Source: Longibaculum muris (GTDB lineage Bacteria > Bacillota_I > Bacilli_A > Erysipelotrichales > Coprobacillaceae). From it: a stretch of DNA of 64,000 nt. The notes beneath the pieces are model-generated. The model searched no databases and was not told the DNA's origin. It was given only the letters and a program-made list of their open reading frames with translations. Of this stretch, positions 1,510 through 30,652 are shown piece after piece (position 1 is the first letter of the stretch; every line of letters begins with the position of its first letter). The position numbers and the translations under genes were made by a program. The DNA lies in contig NZ_SMCQ01000013.1 of the NCBI RefSeq assembly GCF_004343035.1, positions 1-64,000 on the forward strand, in the 5' to 3' direction.

Positions 1510-2720
1510 TTAGTTTATTAAAAAGAATATTTAAAAGCCGGGGTGTTGATAAACTTATTTATGCCTGTGTGGTTATTTTAACAATCTATGGGATTGTTAT
1601 GATTGGTAGTGCATCGGTTGGACAAACAGCTAAATATGGTCCTACATATGCAACTATGAATATGATTAAGCAAATGATCTTTGTATTGAGTGGTTTTGCT
1701 TTTATGATCTTTTTTACCCGTTGTTTTAAAAAAGGGTGGGTTAATTCACCTTCAACTTGGGTAACATATGTCATTGGTTTAGGGCTGATGATTGTCTGTT
1801 TGGCGTTTAGAGATGTAAAAGGATCACATGCATGGATTCAGATTGGTTCTTTTACTATTCAACCAGCTGAATTTATGAAGATAATTATGATCTTGTTTTT
1901 ATCTTTTCATTTTGGTGAAATTGAAGAATATTGCCAGATTCCTAAAAATATTAGTCGTAAAAAGAAAGAAGAATTACAAAAAAGAAAGCTCTGGTATTGT
2001 GTTGTTAGACCAATACTTGCGATTATTGTAGTCTTTTTTGTAGGGGTTCTTTTACAAAAGGATTTAGGGAGTGCATTGATTTTAGCATTTATCTGTATGA
2101 TGTTATTCTTTATTACACCGCGACCTTATTATACAAAATATAAAAAACTATCATTGATCTTATTAGTTATTGCATTTGTTGTTGCGATTTTAGGAATGAA
2201 CTTTATTTTGAAGCCTCACCAATTAGGAAGAATTACAACTTGGCTTAATCCTTTATTAGATGAAAAAGGGGATGGCTGGCAATTGGTAAATGCTTTGGTC
2301 GCTTTTTCTAATGGTGGATTGTTTGGTCAAGGCTTTGGCGCTTCAAGACAAAAGTATGGTTATATTCCTGAATCACATAATGATTTTATTGTTGCAATTA
2401 TTTATGAAGAATTAGGTTTAGTTGGATTTTTGTTATTTTTAATTCCTTATTGTATCATTATATATAAGATGTTTCATTATGGAATGAAAGTGAAAGAGAC
2501 TAAGAGTAAATTAATTTTATATGGTGTTGGGCTTTATTTCTTTACTCATTTATTAGTTAATGTGGGTGGAGTTTCAGGATTGATTCCAATGACCGGTGTT
2601 CCGTTACTATTGATTTCTTCAGGTGGTTCATCAACATGGGCAGCAATGATTGGTATAGGAATAGCTCAATCAATTATTGCAAAATATAATCGTGATCTTT
2701 TAAAAGAACAAATTTCATAG
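1506..2720 (+). CDS. ftsW: FtsW, SEDS peptidoglycan polymerase of the divisome
   Basis: A 404-residue polytopic membrane protein of the SEDS family (FtsW/RodA/SpoVE), which polymerises glycan strands from lipid II together with a class B PBP. Recognisable segments are the first membrane helix ending IVMIGSAS, the GSHAWIQIG/QPAEFMKI loop, the GDGWQLVNALVAFSNGG loop and the PESHNDFIVAIIYEELG segment. I prefer FtsW to RodA because of the neighbouring ylb-rsmD-coaD genes, an order known from Bacillus. RodA or SpoVE function cannot be excluded from sequence alone. The start overlaps the preceding gene. Confidence 0.93.
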   Translation: MISLLKRIFKSRGVDKLIYACVVILTIYGIVMIGSASVGQTAKYGPTYATMNMIKQMIFVLSGFAFMIFFTRCFKKGWVNSPSTWVTYVIGLGLMIVCLAFRDVKGSHAWIQIGSFTIQPAEFMKIIMILFLSFHFGEIEEYCQIPKNISRKKKEELQKRKLWYCVVRPILAIIVVFFVGVLLQKDLGSALILAFICMMLFFITPRPYYTKYKKLSLILLVIAFVVAILGMNFILKPHQLGRITTWLNPLLDEKGDGWQLVNALVAFSNGGLFGQGFGASRQKYGYIPESHNDFIVAIIYEELGLVGFLLFLIPYCIIIYKMFHYGMKVKETKSKLILYGVGLYFFTHLLVNVGGVSGLIPMTGVPLLLISSGGSSTWAAMIGIGIAQSIIAKYNRDLLKEQIS

Positions 2721-25992: not shown

Positions 25993-26676
25993 ATGAGTTG
26001 GAAGATTTTATTGGTTTGGGTATTGTTTATTGCAGCTTTGATGTTTTTAAGCTATTTCTTTACTAAACGTGTCAAAATGAATAAAGAAATAAGAAAACAA
26101 ATCCAGACTGAAGAAGCAGCAAGAAAACAAAAATATACATATCTTAAACCTGGTATTTTTGATGAATGTCCAAGAGAGGATGTTTCTGCAGCTGCATTAT
26201 TTCATTGTATAAGAAAAGAAGATGAGGATTTTGATCACTACTTTGAAAATATGAATGAAAGTGAAAAAGTTGTTTATGGAATTTATCAAGTTGGTTTAAC
26301 ATTACAAGGACAAGGGGCTTCTTTACACAGTTTCTTTTTAAGCCCATCAACAAAACCATTTGTTCCTATTATTGTTGATATTTTTGAAAAAGTTGGATCA
26401 CATGAATTGGCTGATTTAATGCGTGCAGCAAGACGTTTTGCTGAAATTATTGAAAATGATGAAGATGATGATGAAGATGATCCAGAAATGGGAGATTATT
26501 CACGTTATAACTTTTCTGATTTTACTAATGAATTTGCAACTTTAGTAAGTACAACTAATTTAAATGAAAAAATTACAAACTTTATTTTAGATCATAAAGA
26601 AGATTTCTATGATAAATATATTCCTGAAAAAAATGAAGAAAATGGAGTTGATGAAGATGAAGGAACTAGCAACTAA
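25993..26676 (+). CDS. Membrane-anchored DMP19-like (DUF4375-type) protein
   Basis: A 227-residue protein with one N-terminal membrane helix ([19 protein letters not shown]), a basic stop ([13 protein letters not shown]) and a cytosolic domain. The region [20 protein letters not shown] ... LHSFFLS and the following helices resemble DMP19/DUF4375 proteins. A Glu/Asp-rich stretch sits near residue 155. It is the first gene behind the valine T-box and overlaps valS by 20 bases, so it is coexpressed with valyl-tRNA synthetase when valine tRNA is uncharged. Function is unknown. Confidence 0.65.
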
Positions 26677-29275
26677 ATATGATCATAAGAAAGTAGAAGA
26701 AGGAAAATATAAGACTTGGATTGATAAAAAATATTTTGAAGCAGGAGATATTTCTAAAAAGCCATATAGTATTGTTATTCCACCACCTAATGTTACAGGA
26801 AAATTACATTTAGGGCATGCTTGGGATACAACATTACAAGATATGATTATTCGTTATAAGAGAATGCAAGGATATGATGCTTTATGGTTACCTGGAATGG
26901 ATCATGCTGGAATTGCAACACAAGCAAAAGTTGAAGCAAGAATGCGTGAAGAAGGGATTTCACGTTATGATTTAGGACGTGAAAAATTCTTAGAAAAAGC
27001 TTGGTCTTGGAAAGAAGAATATGCTTCTATTATTCGAAGTCAATGGGAAAAATTAGGTTTATCACTTGATTATTCAAAAGAAAGATTTACTTTGGATGAG
27101 GGATTAAGTGAAGCTGTTAAAACTGTATTCGTGACGCTTTATGAAAAAGGTTTGATTTATCAAGGTGAACGTATTATTAACTGGGATCCTGTACAAAGAA
27201 CAGCTTTATCAAATATTGAAGTTATTCATAAAGAAATTGAAGGACATATGTATTATTTCAAATACAAGGTTGTGGAAACAGATGAAACACTTGTTATTGC
27301 GACAACTCGTCCTGAAACAATGTTTGCTGACCAAGCAATCTTTGTTCATCCAGATGATGAAAGATATACACATTTAATAGGAAAACATGCAATTAATCCG
27401 GCTAATGGTGAAGCTTTACCAATTATGGCTGATAGTTATATTGATATGAGCTTTGGAACTGCAGTTATGAAATGTACTCCTGCACATGATCCAAATGACT
27501 TTGCTTTAGCAAAGAAATACAATTTAAAAATGCCAATTTGTATGAATGATGATGGTACAATGAACGCTATGTGCGGTAAATATGCTGGAATGGATCGTTT
27601 TGTATGTCGTGAAGCTTTGGTTAAAGATTTTGAGGATGCTGGAGTGGTTGATCATATTGAAACACATATGCATCAAGTTGGACATTCTGAACGAAGCAAT
27701 GCGATTGTTGAACCATATTTATCAAAACAATGGTTTGTTAAAATGAAACCATTGGCTGAAGCAGCTTTAGCTAATCAACAAACTGATTCAAAAGTCAATT
27801 TTGTTCCTGGACGTTTTGAGAAAACATTTAATCAATGGATGGAAAATATTGAAGATTGGTGTATTTCACGTCAATTATGGTGGGGACATCAAGTACCTGC
27901 TTGGTATCACAAAGAAACTGGAGAAGTTTATGTTGGTAAGAATCCACCCGCTGATATAGAAAATTGGAAACAAGATGAAGATGTCTTAGATACATGGTTT
28001 TCAAGTGCTTTATGGCCATTTTCAACAATGGGTTGGCCAAATACTGATAGCGAATTATTTCAACGCTATTTCCCAACAAATACATTAGTTACAGGATATG
28101 ATATCATTTTCTTCTGGGTATCTCGTATGATTTTCCAATCATTAGAATTTACGCAAGAAAGACCTTTTAAAGATGTTTTGATTCATGGTTTAATTCGTGA
28201 TGAACAAGGAAGAAAAATGTCTAAATCTTTAGGTAATGGGGTTGATCCAATGGATGTTATTGATGAATATGGTGCTGATACACTTCGTTTCTTCTTAACA
28301 ACTAATTCAGCTCCAGGAATGGATTTAAGATATATTCCAGAAAAACTTGAAGCATCATGGAATTTCATTAATAAGATTTGGAACTCTGCACGTTTTGTTT
28401 TAATGAATATTGATGAAGATATGAAATATGAAGATTTAAGTTTTGATCATTTGAATTTATCTGATCAATGGATTTTAAATCGTTTGAATGAGGTTATTGT
28501 ATCTGTTGATGAAAATATGGATAAATTTGAGTTTGTTAATGTTGGAAGTGAATTGTATAATTTTATTTGGGATGATTTCTGTTCATGGTATATTGAATTA
28601 TCTAAAGTTCATTTAAATAGTGAAAATGCAAATGAAAAACAAGCAACCCAAAATACTTTGGTTTATGTTTTAAATGCGATTGTTAGATTATTACATCCAT
28701 TTATGCCATTTGTGACTGAAGAAATTTATCAAACAATTCCTCATTTAGAAGAATCTATCTGTATTTCATCTTGGCCACAAGTAAATCATGAATTTGATAA
28801 TCAAACAATTAATGATCAATTCCAATATTTAATTGATATTATTAAAGGAATCAGAAATATGCGTGCTCAATATGTCATTAAAAATGCGATTGAAGTTGCT
28901 TATAGTATGCAAACAAAAGATAGTGCATTAGAAGCATTATTAAAAGACTTAGCACCATATATCTATAAATTATGTCATGCACGTTGCATTGGTTATAATG
29001 TAGAAACATCACAAAATGTAGCGACTGAAATGATCAAAGGTGGAAATGCGTTGATTATTGAACTTGGTGATTATATTGATTTAGCAGCTGAAAAGAAAAA
29101 ATTAGAAGCAGAACTTCAAAAATTGGCTGGCGAAATTAAACGTTGTGAAGGTATGCTTTCAAATCCTAACTTCGTTAATAAAGCACCAGCTAGTAAAGTA
29201 GAGGCAGAAAAAGAAAAATTGGCTGATTATCAATCTAAATATGAAGCTGTTCAAACAAAATTAGGGAATATGTAA
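26657..29275 (+). CDS. valS: Valyl-tRNA synthetase
   Basis: Charges tRNA-Val. The 872-residue class I synthetase has HIGH as HLGHAW near residue 49, the CP1 editing domain ([12 protein letters not shown], about 215), [20 protein letters not shown] as [11 protein letters not shown] near residue 521, anticodon-binding domain, and the C-terminal coiled coil ([15 protein letters not shown]) typical of ValRS. GGAG nine bases upstream selects ATG 26657. It is the last gene of the T-box operon; folC, which follows valS in Bacillus, is absent. Confidence 0.97.
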
Positions 29276-29305: not shown

Positions 29306-29379
29306 CATTTTTGACAAGAAAAATTGATACAAAGAAGCGTATATATAAGTAGGGGCTACTTTTGAAAGGAAGGATAATT

Positions 29380-29544
29380 ATGAAAGAATTAACATTACAA
29401 GAACAATATGAGATTCAAGGTGGGTCATTGGTTGGGACAGCTCTTTTGTATTTATTGTTAGGAGCAGGTATTTATAAGATTTGGAAATCAAAGAAAGGAC
29501 GTATTTCTATTCCAAGACTTATTAATATTGAATGGCGTAATTAA
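29380..29544 (+). CDS. Small double-glycine leader peptide (putative bacteriocin or signalling peptide)
   Basis: A 54-residue peptide. Residues 1-15 (MKELTLQEQYEIQGG) fit the double-glycine leader consensus: Leu at -12, Thr at -11, Glu at -8, Ile at -4 and Gly-Gly at -2/-1. The predicted 39-residue mature part has a hydrophobic stretch with GTALLYLLLGAG (residues 19-30), then a basic segment (WKSKKGR) and a polar tail, like a short membrane-active class II bacteriocin or pheromone. AAGGAAGG precedes ATG 29380. No C39-peptidase ABC transporter or immunity gene is next to it. Family assignment is inferred from the leader only. Confidence 0.6.
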   Translation: MKELTLQEQYEIQGGSLVGTALLYLLLGAGIYKIWKSKKGRISIPRLINIEWRN

Positions 29545-29547
29545 ATG

Positions 29548-29576
29548 TGAAAGGCTTTATGCCTTTCATATTTTTT
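29548..29576 (+). terminator. Terminator of the double-glycine peptide gene
   Basis: TGAAAGGC, loop TTTAT, GCCTTTCA then TATTTTTT, starting four bases after the stop. This makes the small gene a self-contained transcription unit. Confidence 0.88.
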
Positions 29577-29613: not shown

Positions 29614-29973
29614 ATGAAGTTTGAATATAAGATTGTTATTATGGGGATTCTTTTTTCTTGTTTATGTATCTTACTTTTTACATATGGAACGACACTTGGT
29701 CAAAAGACGATGTATGTTTATCAAGTAGGTATTTATAAAGAAGAAAAGAATAAGGAAGATAAATTGGATGAGTTATCTAAGCAAGGGATAAAAGGATATT
29801 GTTATCAAAAGGAAAATCAATATTATGTTTTATCTATGATTAGTGAAAATCGTCAAGAAATTGATACTCATGCCAGTCAAGTTAAAGGTATTTTAAAGAC
29901 TTATAAAGTATCTAAAGATACTACTGTAGATATTTTACTGCAAAATTTAGCTAAAGGAGTTACACATGATTAA
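29614..29973 (+). CDS. SpoIIB-like membrane-anchored SPOR-domain protein
   Basis: A 119-residue protein with a short cytoplasmic N-terminus, one membrane helix (IVIMGILFSCLCILLFTYG) and an extracytoplasmic domain with the SPOR pattern (YVYQVGIYKEEKNKEDKLDEL ... YYVLSMISENRQEI). SPOR domains bind denuded glycan at septa. In Bacillus spoIIB lies just upstream of maf-radC-mre-min-spoIVF, and this gene has the matching place before radC. It is shorter than Bacillus SpoIIB. GAGGTGATATGCG precedes ATG. A weak sigma-E-like match (TCATATT, 14 bases, CATAGATA at 29566-29594) lies upstream. It overlaps radC by eight bases. Confidence 0.65.
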   Translation: MKFEYKIVIMGILFSCLCILLFTYGTTLGQKTMYVYQVGIYKEEKNKEDKLDELSKQGIKGYCYQKENQYYVLSMISENRQEIDTHASQVKGILKTYKVSKDTTVDILLQNLAKGVTHD

Positions 29974-30652
29974 ATCATTACCAAAAGAAGAAAATCCTAG
30001 AGAAAAGGCATTGAATTATGGCATTGAGTCATTGAGCAATGTTGAATTATTAGCTTTGGTTTTAAGAACAGGAAACAAAGAAGAATCAGTTATTCAATTG
30101 GCTCAGAGATTATTAAATGAAGTAGGTGGATTTGAAAGATTGAATGATATTTCCTATGCTCAATTGATATCACTTAAAGGAATTAAGCAAGCTAAAGCAA
30201 TTGAAATTTTAAGTATTCTTGAAATTGCAAAGCGTCTAAAGAGTAGAGTTCAAGATGCACAATCTTTAATGACTCCGTTTGATATTTATTATTATGTGAA
30301 GGATAAAATGATGTTTTTAAAACAAGAACATTTTGTTGTTTTATGTTTGGATAATAAAAATCGGGTTATTAAAGAAAAAACCATTTTTATTGGTTCGATT
30401 AATATGAGTGTAGTGACCCCAAGAGAGGTGTTTAAAGAAGCTATTCATGTGAGTAGTGCCAAGATTGCTTTGGTGCATAATCATCCTAGCGGGGATGCTT
30501 CACCGAGTCAGGAAGATATTTATTTGACAAGACAGTTTAAAGAGTTGGGAGAAATGATGTCAATTGAAATCATTGATCATATTGTTGTAGGGTGGCATCA
30601 GTTTTATAGTATCAGTGCAACGCATCTGTTTTATGATGATGACAAAATTTAA
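29966..30652 (+). CDS. radC: RadC family protein (JAB/MPN domain)
   Basis: A 228-residue protein of the UPF0758/RadC family. An N-terminal helix-hairpin-helix part (LPKEENPREKALNYGIESLSNVELLAL, split here by family variation) precedes a JAMM-type metal site: ALVHNHPSGDASPSQED near residues 167-183, with His-x-His and the distal Asp. The historical link to DNA repair is weak and biochemical function is uncertain. It overlaps the SPOR gene and precedes mreC; mreB, which normally lies between, is missing. Confidence 0.92.
   Translation: MIKSLPKEENPREKALNYGIESLSNVELLALVLRTGNKEESVIQLAQRLLNEVGGFERLNDISYAQLISLKGIKQAKAIEILSILEIAKRLKSRVQDAQSLMTPFDIYYYVKDKMMFLKQEHFVVLCLDNKNRVIKEKTIFIGSINMSVVTPREVFKEAIHVSSAKIALVHNHPSGDASPSQEDIYLTRQFKELGEMMSIEIIDHIVVGWHQFYSISATHLFYDDDKI

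Follow-up and report, generated by a model that had tools for sequence, protein, structure and literature searches.

Double-glycine peptides are habitually taken to be bacteriocins or pheromones, and C39 domains to be parts of exporters. What, then, is the role of such a peptide when its gene stands alone, and which enzyme would process it? The question is raised by a short open reading frame of Longibaculum muris, located at 29380-29544 of a stretch of 64,000 nucleotides, which was analysed as a whole and is called the window here. The first-pass annotation had described it as an isolated double-glycine peptide, possibly exported by a distant C39 transporter and possibly under sporulation control. 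Our analysis confirmed the observation itself and supports that interpretation in part. The features on which the following description is based are all on the + strand:

26609 to 29275, + strand: valS, the conserved upstream neighbour (gene order in relatives).
29340 to 29348, + strand: TATATATAA, a conserved -10-like element (upstream comparison of 26 orthologues).
29365 to 29373, + strand: Shine-Dalgarno sequence AAAGGAAGG (sequence).
29380 to 29544, + strand: precursor gene of the membrane peptide, 54 aa (open reading frame with Shine-Dalgarno sequence, orthologues, dN/dS).
29380 to 29424, + strand: leader MKELTLQEQYEIQGG, 15 aa, of the double-glycine type (sequence; the Gly at -2 is kept in leadered relatives, and the leader is absent as a unit in leaderless ones).
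29425 to 29541, + strand: core SLVGTALLYLLLGAGIYKIWKSKKGRISIPRLINIEWRN, 39 aa (alignment, hydropathy, AlphaFold2, net charge).
29543 to 29573, + strand: intrinsic terminator closing the peptide unit.
29614 to 29973, + strand: membrane-anchored SPOR-like protein at the spoIIB position (Pfam SPOR, 0.014, below the cutoff; synteny).
29966 to 30652, + strand: radC, the conserved downstream neighbour (Pfam RadC, 1.3e-42).

Double-glycine leaders carry Gly-Gly and conserved hydrophobic residues at -4, -7 and -12 (PMC10885120, PMC6363468). Leu-12, Glu-8, Ile-4, Gly-2 and Gly-1 were all found as claimed; position -7 is Gln, which is not hydrophobic, so that the -4/-7/-12 pattern is matched in part. 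The gene also proved to be a transcription unit of its own, bounded at its 5' end by an A/T-rich hairpin and T-tract after valS and closed by the terminator at 29543-29573. It lies between valS and the spoIIB-like/radC/mreC genes, an order conserved in relatives, and the window contains neither a C39 transporter nor an immunity gene, the C39 genes of this genome being located on other contigs. The peptide had no match in Pfam or NCBIfam, bacteriocin families included. Elsewhere in the window, a short open reading frame at 2580-2720 (+) has GG after a leader-like stretch, which is probably due to chance.

A search for similar GG peptides, suggested in the first-pass annotation, identified orthologues in 40 of the 43 genomes of the home family, which we read as Coprobacillaceae-type, at E values of 1e-31 to 5e-8. 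These include Candidatus Stoquefichus massiliensis (94%), Massilimicrobiota timonensis (81%), Thomasclavelia sp. and Faecalibacillus faecis, and the usual locus reads valS, peptide, SPOR-like (spoIIB-like)/radC/mreC. Comparison of the window gene with its two nearest relatives gave a dN of 0.05-0.07 and a dS of 1.1-1.2, that is a dN/dS of about 0.05, indicative of purifying selection. Given the orthologues, this ratio and the conserved synteny, the open reading frame is a real gene and not a product of chance. Profile searches added 57 genomes of the sister family and, from other families in the class, 56 (54, plus two weak mycoplasma-type matches); in several of the latter genomes valS, radC and rplU again adjoin the peptide. 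The 72,556 plasmid and 50,697 phage records searched contained no copy. Taken together, these comparisons describe what appears to be an ancient, vertically inherited family of tiny membrane peptides, nearly universal in one branch of the Bacilli. The family is undescribed; our search of the open-access literature found no paper on it, and none linking C39 peptidases with ybeY, the gene that marks the place of the peptidase described below.

Tandem copies occur in some home-family genera, with a maximum of four (G007). GG peptides were also seen in tandem beside a family member (L079 1890-2036 (-); L022 at about 1496 (-); L016 at 2025 and 2231 (-)), and some of these keep the leader while their core is unrelated and has no C-terminal motif. 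Since such peptides share the leader type and differ in their cores, the exporter considered below may have more than one substrate.

The core consists of a hydrophobic span, at about residues 16-35, followed by a basic patch and an S-x2-G-R-I-S-I-P...E-W motif; alignment and hydropathy thus bear out its earlier description as a hydrophobic helix with a basic patch. AlphaFold2 placed helices at 6-36 and 46-53 of the precursor with a mean pLDDT of 70, which is uninformative on function. The net charge of the window core is 0 before the span and +6 after it, and all 28 aligned members have a net charge of about 0 ahead of the span and of +2 to +6 in the 22 C-terminal residues. By the positive-inside rule, an uncharged N-terminal side and a basic C-terminal side predict an N-out/C-in orientation. 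The predicted mature core (37-42 aa) is nearly equal in length to the product of leaderless relatives (39-42 aa), whose start Met aligns at the cleavage site of the leadered ones. Both findings would follow if the core acts once it has been freed and the leader serves only the C39 step.

A prepilin-like nature, suggested by the Gly and the hydrophobic span, was considered and rejected, given an acidic leader and the lack of a Glu at +5. In B. subtilis the corresponding position is occupied by comC, in a region whose order is valS-folC-comC-spoIIB-maf-radC-mreBCD-minCD. One sister-family genus has a prepilin peptidase-like protein (ComC-like, GGADLLIF) between the leaderless peptide and radC (L155 2247-2633, L156 981-1352, L157 1417-1812).

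The distant C39 transporter postulated earlier does exist. The genome contains one exporter (PCAT), unlinked to the peptide gene, on contig C11 (G000:C11). It is a protein of 672 aa with C39, ABC_membrane and ABC_tran domains and intact catalytic residues, encoded between an argD-like gene and ybeY, and no double-glycine open reading frame was found within the surrounding 10 kb. A second C39 match, at G000:C2:129202-129546 (L002 1426-2196), is a C39-like protein of 256 aa with an N-terminal membrane anchor; it lies between two sets of two-component regulators and away from ybeY, and was rejected as partner.

The C39 gene keeps its place immediately upstream of ybeY in all 18 sister-family loci and in each of the five home-family loci whose reading extended that far, and at least 13 of 20 loci of other orders have it there too. 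What is encoded there takes several forms. The home family has a full PCAT, in which Gln, Cys, His, Asp, Walker A, signature and Walker B are invariant (10 aligned); among C39 domains of this family from peptide-bearing genomes, Cys, His and Asp are kept in 31 of 31 aligned. The sister family has a stand-alone C39 of 111-127 aa (L092-L099, L143-L152), with Cys, His and Asp invariant in the first eight aligned and the usual Gln ahead of the Cys missing; for LahT, the catalytic role of this Gln has been questioned (PMC6363468). Other orders have proteins of about 390-410 aa with a C39 and a transmembrane domain and without an ATPase (L194-L213, e.g. L194 1468-2646), and the profile of this form covers 383 columns of the home PCAT, stopping before its ATPase. 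Two mycoplasma-type genomes, read under genetic code 4, encode full PCATs. A C39 tree separated these forms, and did not resolve their order or whether they make up one lineage.

Leader and peptidase were observed to travel together. Within the sister family, 22 genomes are leadered (with a leader or a leader-like extension), and 17 of them also encode a solo C39; of the 35 leaderless genomes (with Met directly at the core), none does. The p value for this contrast is 2e-10, to be read knowing that the genomes are not independent; counted by genus, the contrast is 6/7 against 0/10 (p=6e-4). Leader status was read base by base in 30 of the 35 leaderless genomes and assigned from the start of the profile match and the open frame in five. 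One genome (G274), which is among the leadered exceptions in these figures, had been tallied as leaderless in an earlier count. Its peptide (L158 1307-1498 (-)) is extended at the N-terminus by an atypical, hydrophobic stretch that ends in GG and could be a decaying leader, and no C39 was found in this genome. The assemblies of the leadered genomes that lack a solo C39 are 79-89% complete. Misplaced starts as the origin of the leaderless genes were ruled out in the 17 loci subjected to a frame check, none of which has an in-frame upstream start that would add a leader-length leader. Sister-family genomes without the peptide have a solo C39 in one of 216 cases, in an assembly that is 68% complete. 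Three leaderless genomes have C39 matches of other kinds: bacteriocin-type PCATs (719-759 aa) in G087 and G222, and a weak match in G258.

A similar pattern holds in the home family, where none of the three genomes without the peptide (G009, G010, G024) has an intact catalytic PCAT. In G009 the peptide has been deleted at its locus, the interval between valS and the SPOR-like gene having shrunk to 116 bases, and its PCAT counterpart is a degenerate protein with no detectable ABC domain and the catalytic Cys replaced by Ala. G010 has no PCAT, and in G024 the Cys, His and Asp of the PCAT are all replaced; radC was not found in these two genomes, so that the loss of the peptide was read at the locus itself in G009 only. 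The residue-losing PCATs of two home-family genomes with no detected peptide lie at L142 1428-3050 and L141 1074-3008. One genome has the peptide and no detected PCAT (G001, assembly 69% complete), and in another the PCAT is split by an apparent frameshift (G007). Of the 56 peptide-bearing genomes outside the order, the only ones that this count covers, 55 encode a C39, usually with a transmembrane domain and without an ATPase. In the sister family the residue at -1 varies, G-K, G-S, G-R or G-L often standing in place of GG, and one home-family peptide has G-E although the PCAT triad is intact (G004). We regard the peptide family, and its link with the C39 gene, as well supported, and these presence patterns make the PCAT or its relatives the likely processor of the leader.

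We consider it probable, though by no means certain, that the precursor gives rise to a membrane peptide which is matured by a dedicated C39 peptidase and acts mainly in the membrane of its producer. We infer the cleavage, topology, site of action and function from what was observed directly, namely the gene family, its synteny, the co-occurrence with C39 genes, the catalytic-residue patterns and the agreement of the core with the leaderless product. The leader would be recognised and cut off by the C39 cysteine peptidase encoded just upstream of ybeY, which in L. muris would be the orphan PCAT on contig C11. This would free a single-span peptide of about 39 residues, the putative functional form of this vertically inherited family. 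With the charged leader removed, the N-terminus could cross the membrane, and the core would insert N-out/C-in in the membrane of the producer, with a role in envelope or membrane housekeeping. Lineages that start translation at the core would bypass leader removal, and have lost the peptidase. Where the ABC ATPase stays (home family, mycoplasmas), the exporter module may help in translocation or release. Among the findings that are awkward for this proposal, the solo C39s lack the Gln, and many of their partner peptides lack GG.

The strongest competitor is secretion: in the home family the double-glycine peptide would be a signal or matrix peptide that the orphan PCAT cleaves and exports, and the ATPase-less and solo forms elsewhere would be secondary reductions accompanied by a new use of the peptide. 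The ATPase motifs and C39 triad of the home PCAT are intact, which would be unexpected if nothing were exported, and the co-occurrence of peptide and PCAT in the home family is near-perfect. Precedents for non-bacteriocin roles of this kind are EbfG1-4/PteB in Synechococcus (PMC4997328) and HetC in Nostoc (PMC10986499). These, however, are exporters with an ATPase, unlike several of the forms found here, and the mature parts of EbfG have no homologues in other cyanobacteria, unlike the conserved core of the present family. Moreover, the same core, the same two loci and the same coupling are found in lineages without the ATPase or the leader, neither locus has a receptor or regulator gene, and both a hydrophobic span and a C-terminal motif are conserved in the core. 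Since relatives have an ATPase-less or stand-alone C39, or a leaderless core without such a peptidase, secretion is unlikely to be the conserved function. Thus, of the earlier proposal of export by a distant C39 transporter, the transporter stands, as the likely processor, and export as the core function is doubtful. This secretion reading is unlikely in our view, and export remains a live rival where the ATPase has been retained.

It is distinctly improbable that the leader is vestigial, the peptide staying uncleaved in the membrane and the C39 protein working on another substrate. This would suit the variable -1 residue of the sister family and the missing Gln of the solo C39s. It fits poorly with a leader that is kept almost only alongside a C39 and is absent where the C39 is absent, and with the coincidence of peptide loss and loss of the catalytic Cys.

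A class II bacteriocin or other antimicrobial, to which the leader type, the hydrophobic and basic core and the sub-threshold matches of some relatives to bacteriocin models might point, is very unlikely. The core is strongly conserved under purifying selection and its inheritance is vertical and near-universal. In addition, there is no immunity gene, the neighbours in the window and in relatives are valS, the SPOR-like gene and radC, the plasmid and phage records hold no copy, and the window peptide has no family match. The bacteriocin character read into the sequence earlier is therefore not supported.

Sporulation control is likewise not supported and barely credible: the locus lies in the spoIIB-radC-mre-min-spoIVF region and many hosts have SpoIVA, but seven home-family genomes without a SpoIVA match keep both peptide and PCAT (G004, G008, G015, G016, G018, G019, G026), G009 shows the reverse, with SpoIVA and no peptide, and the sigma-E-like pattern invoked in its favour is not conserved. 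Its 'TCATTTT' is the tail of the terminator-like element of valS, and the closest relatives do not share the proposed octamer GATACAAA, whereas TATATATAA is kept. Upstream of the peptides in L019, L020, L028, L029, L031 and L032 we also observed a stretch of leader RNA that is conserved as GAGGAAGTTAGTGG...TCTTTTCC and might form base pairs; AAGGTTTAGTGG...GTGGCCTTT was seen in another group.

The preferred reading, maturation by C39 of a peptide for the producer's own membrane, was compared with known systems. PCAT1, ComA/ComC and LahT share with it the C39 Cys/His/Asp, the Gly-Gly leader and the hydrophobic residues at -4 and -12, and the nearest solved chains are annotated as bacteriocin-type PCATs and ComA. 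The present system differs from these in that substrate and enzyme genes are unlinked, the core is conserved and vertically inherited, many of the enzymes have no ATPase or no transporter part at all, and leaderless relatives occur. The best NCBIfam match of the home PCAT is NF045998, the Mbov_0121-family peptidase-domain ABC transporter of mycoplasmas (1.6e-88), which is also the best match of the ATPase-less and solo forms. As it scores 297.7 bits against a cutoff of 500, the home PCAT is a relative and not a member of NF045998; the PCATs of two mycoplasma-type genomes (G464, G583) score above the cutoff.

JCVI-syn3A 0401 is a C39 transporter for which no double-glycine peptide is known, as in other mycoplasmas, and import of lipoyl-peptides has been tentatively proposed for it (PMC6609329). 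By this published description it resembles the present case, as a C39-domain ABC transporter with no known double-glycine substrate. In the two mycoplasma-type genomes, both of which have an Mbov_0121-family PCAT, we found leadered open reading frames with GG and a C-terminal S-x2-G...W, the Trp being encoded by TGA (L250 1270-1476 (+), L252 1251-1430 (-)). One lies upstream of rplU and the other downstream of ileS-lspA. Their E values of 1.4e-5 and 3.3e-4 are modest, which makes them a lead and not a result; they are candidate substrates of the C39 transporters of mycoplasmas, JCVI-syn3A 0401 included, for which none was known. A role confined to the cell wall is weakened by these candidate homologues, themselves weak matches. 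Tentatively, and with rather more doubt than confidence, we extend the proposal to a class-wide two-gene system. In it, a small transmembrane peptide and a C39 peptidase would mature a housekeeping membrane peptide in Erysipelotrichales, reduced-genome orders and mycoplasmas; the peptidase would occur with an ATPase, without one or without the transporter part, the leader would be discarded when the peptidase is lost, and the same family would supply the missing substrate of the orphan mycoplasma transporters, 0401 among them.

The leader is kept almost only where the matching C39 gene is kept, and this speaks for a maturation system with a housekeeping task and against a weapon or a spore signal; action in the producer's own membrane is our best reading of its purpose. 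In several families the genes for peptide and peptidase have been retained, each as a single gene passed on vertically at its own fixed place, and both ATPase and leader are dispensable. Leader removal is thereby separated from secretion, which predicts a general pathway for the maturation of small membrane peptides. A published puzzle, that of mycoplasma and JCVI-syn3A C39 transporters without a double-glycine substrate (PMC6609329), also gains a concrete candidate.
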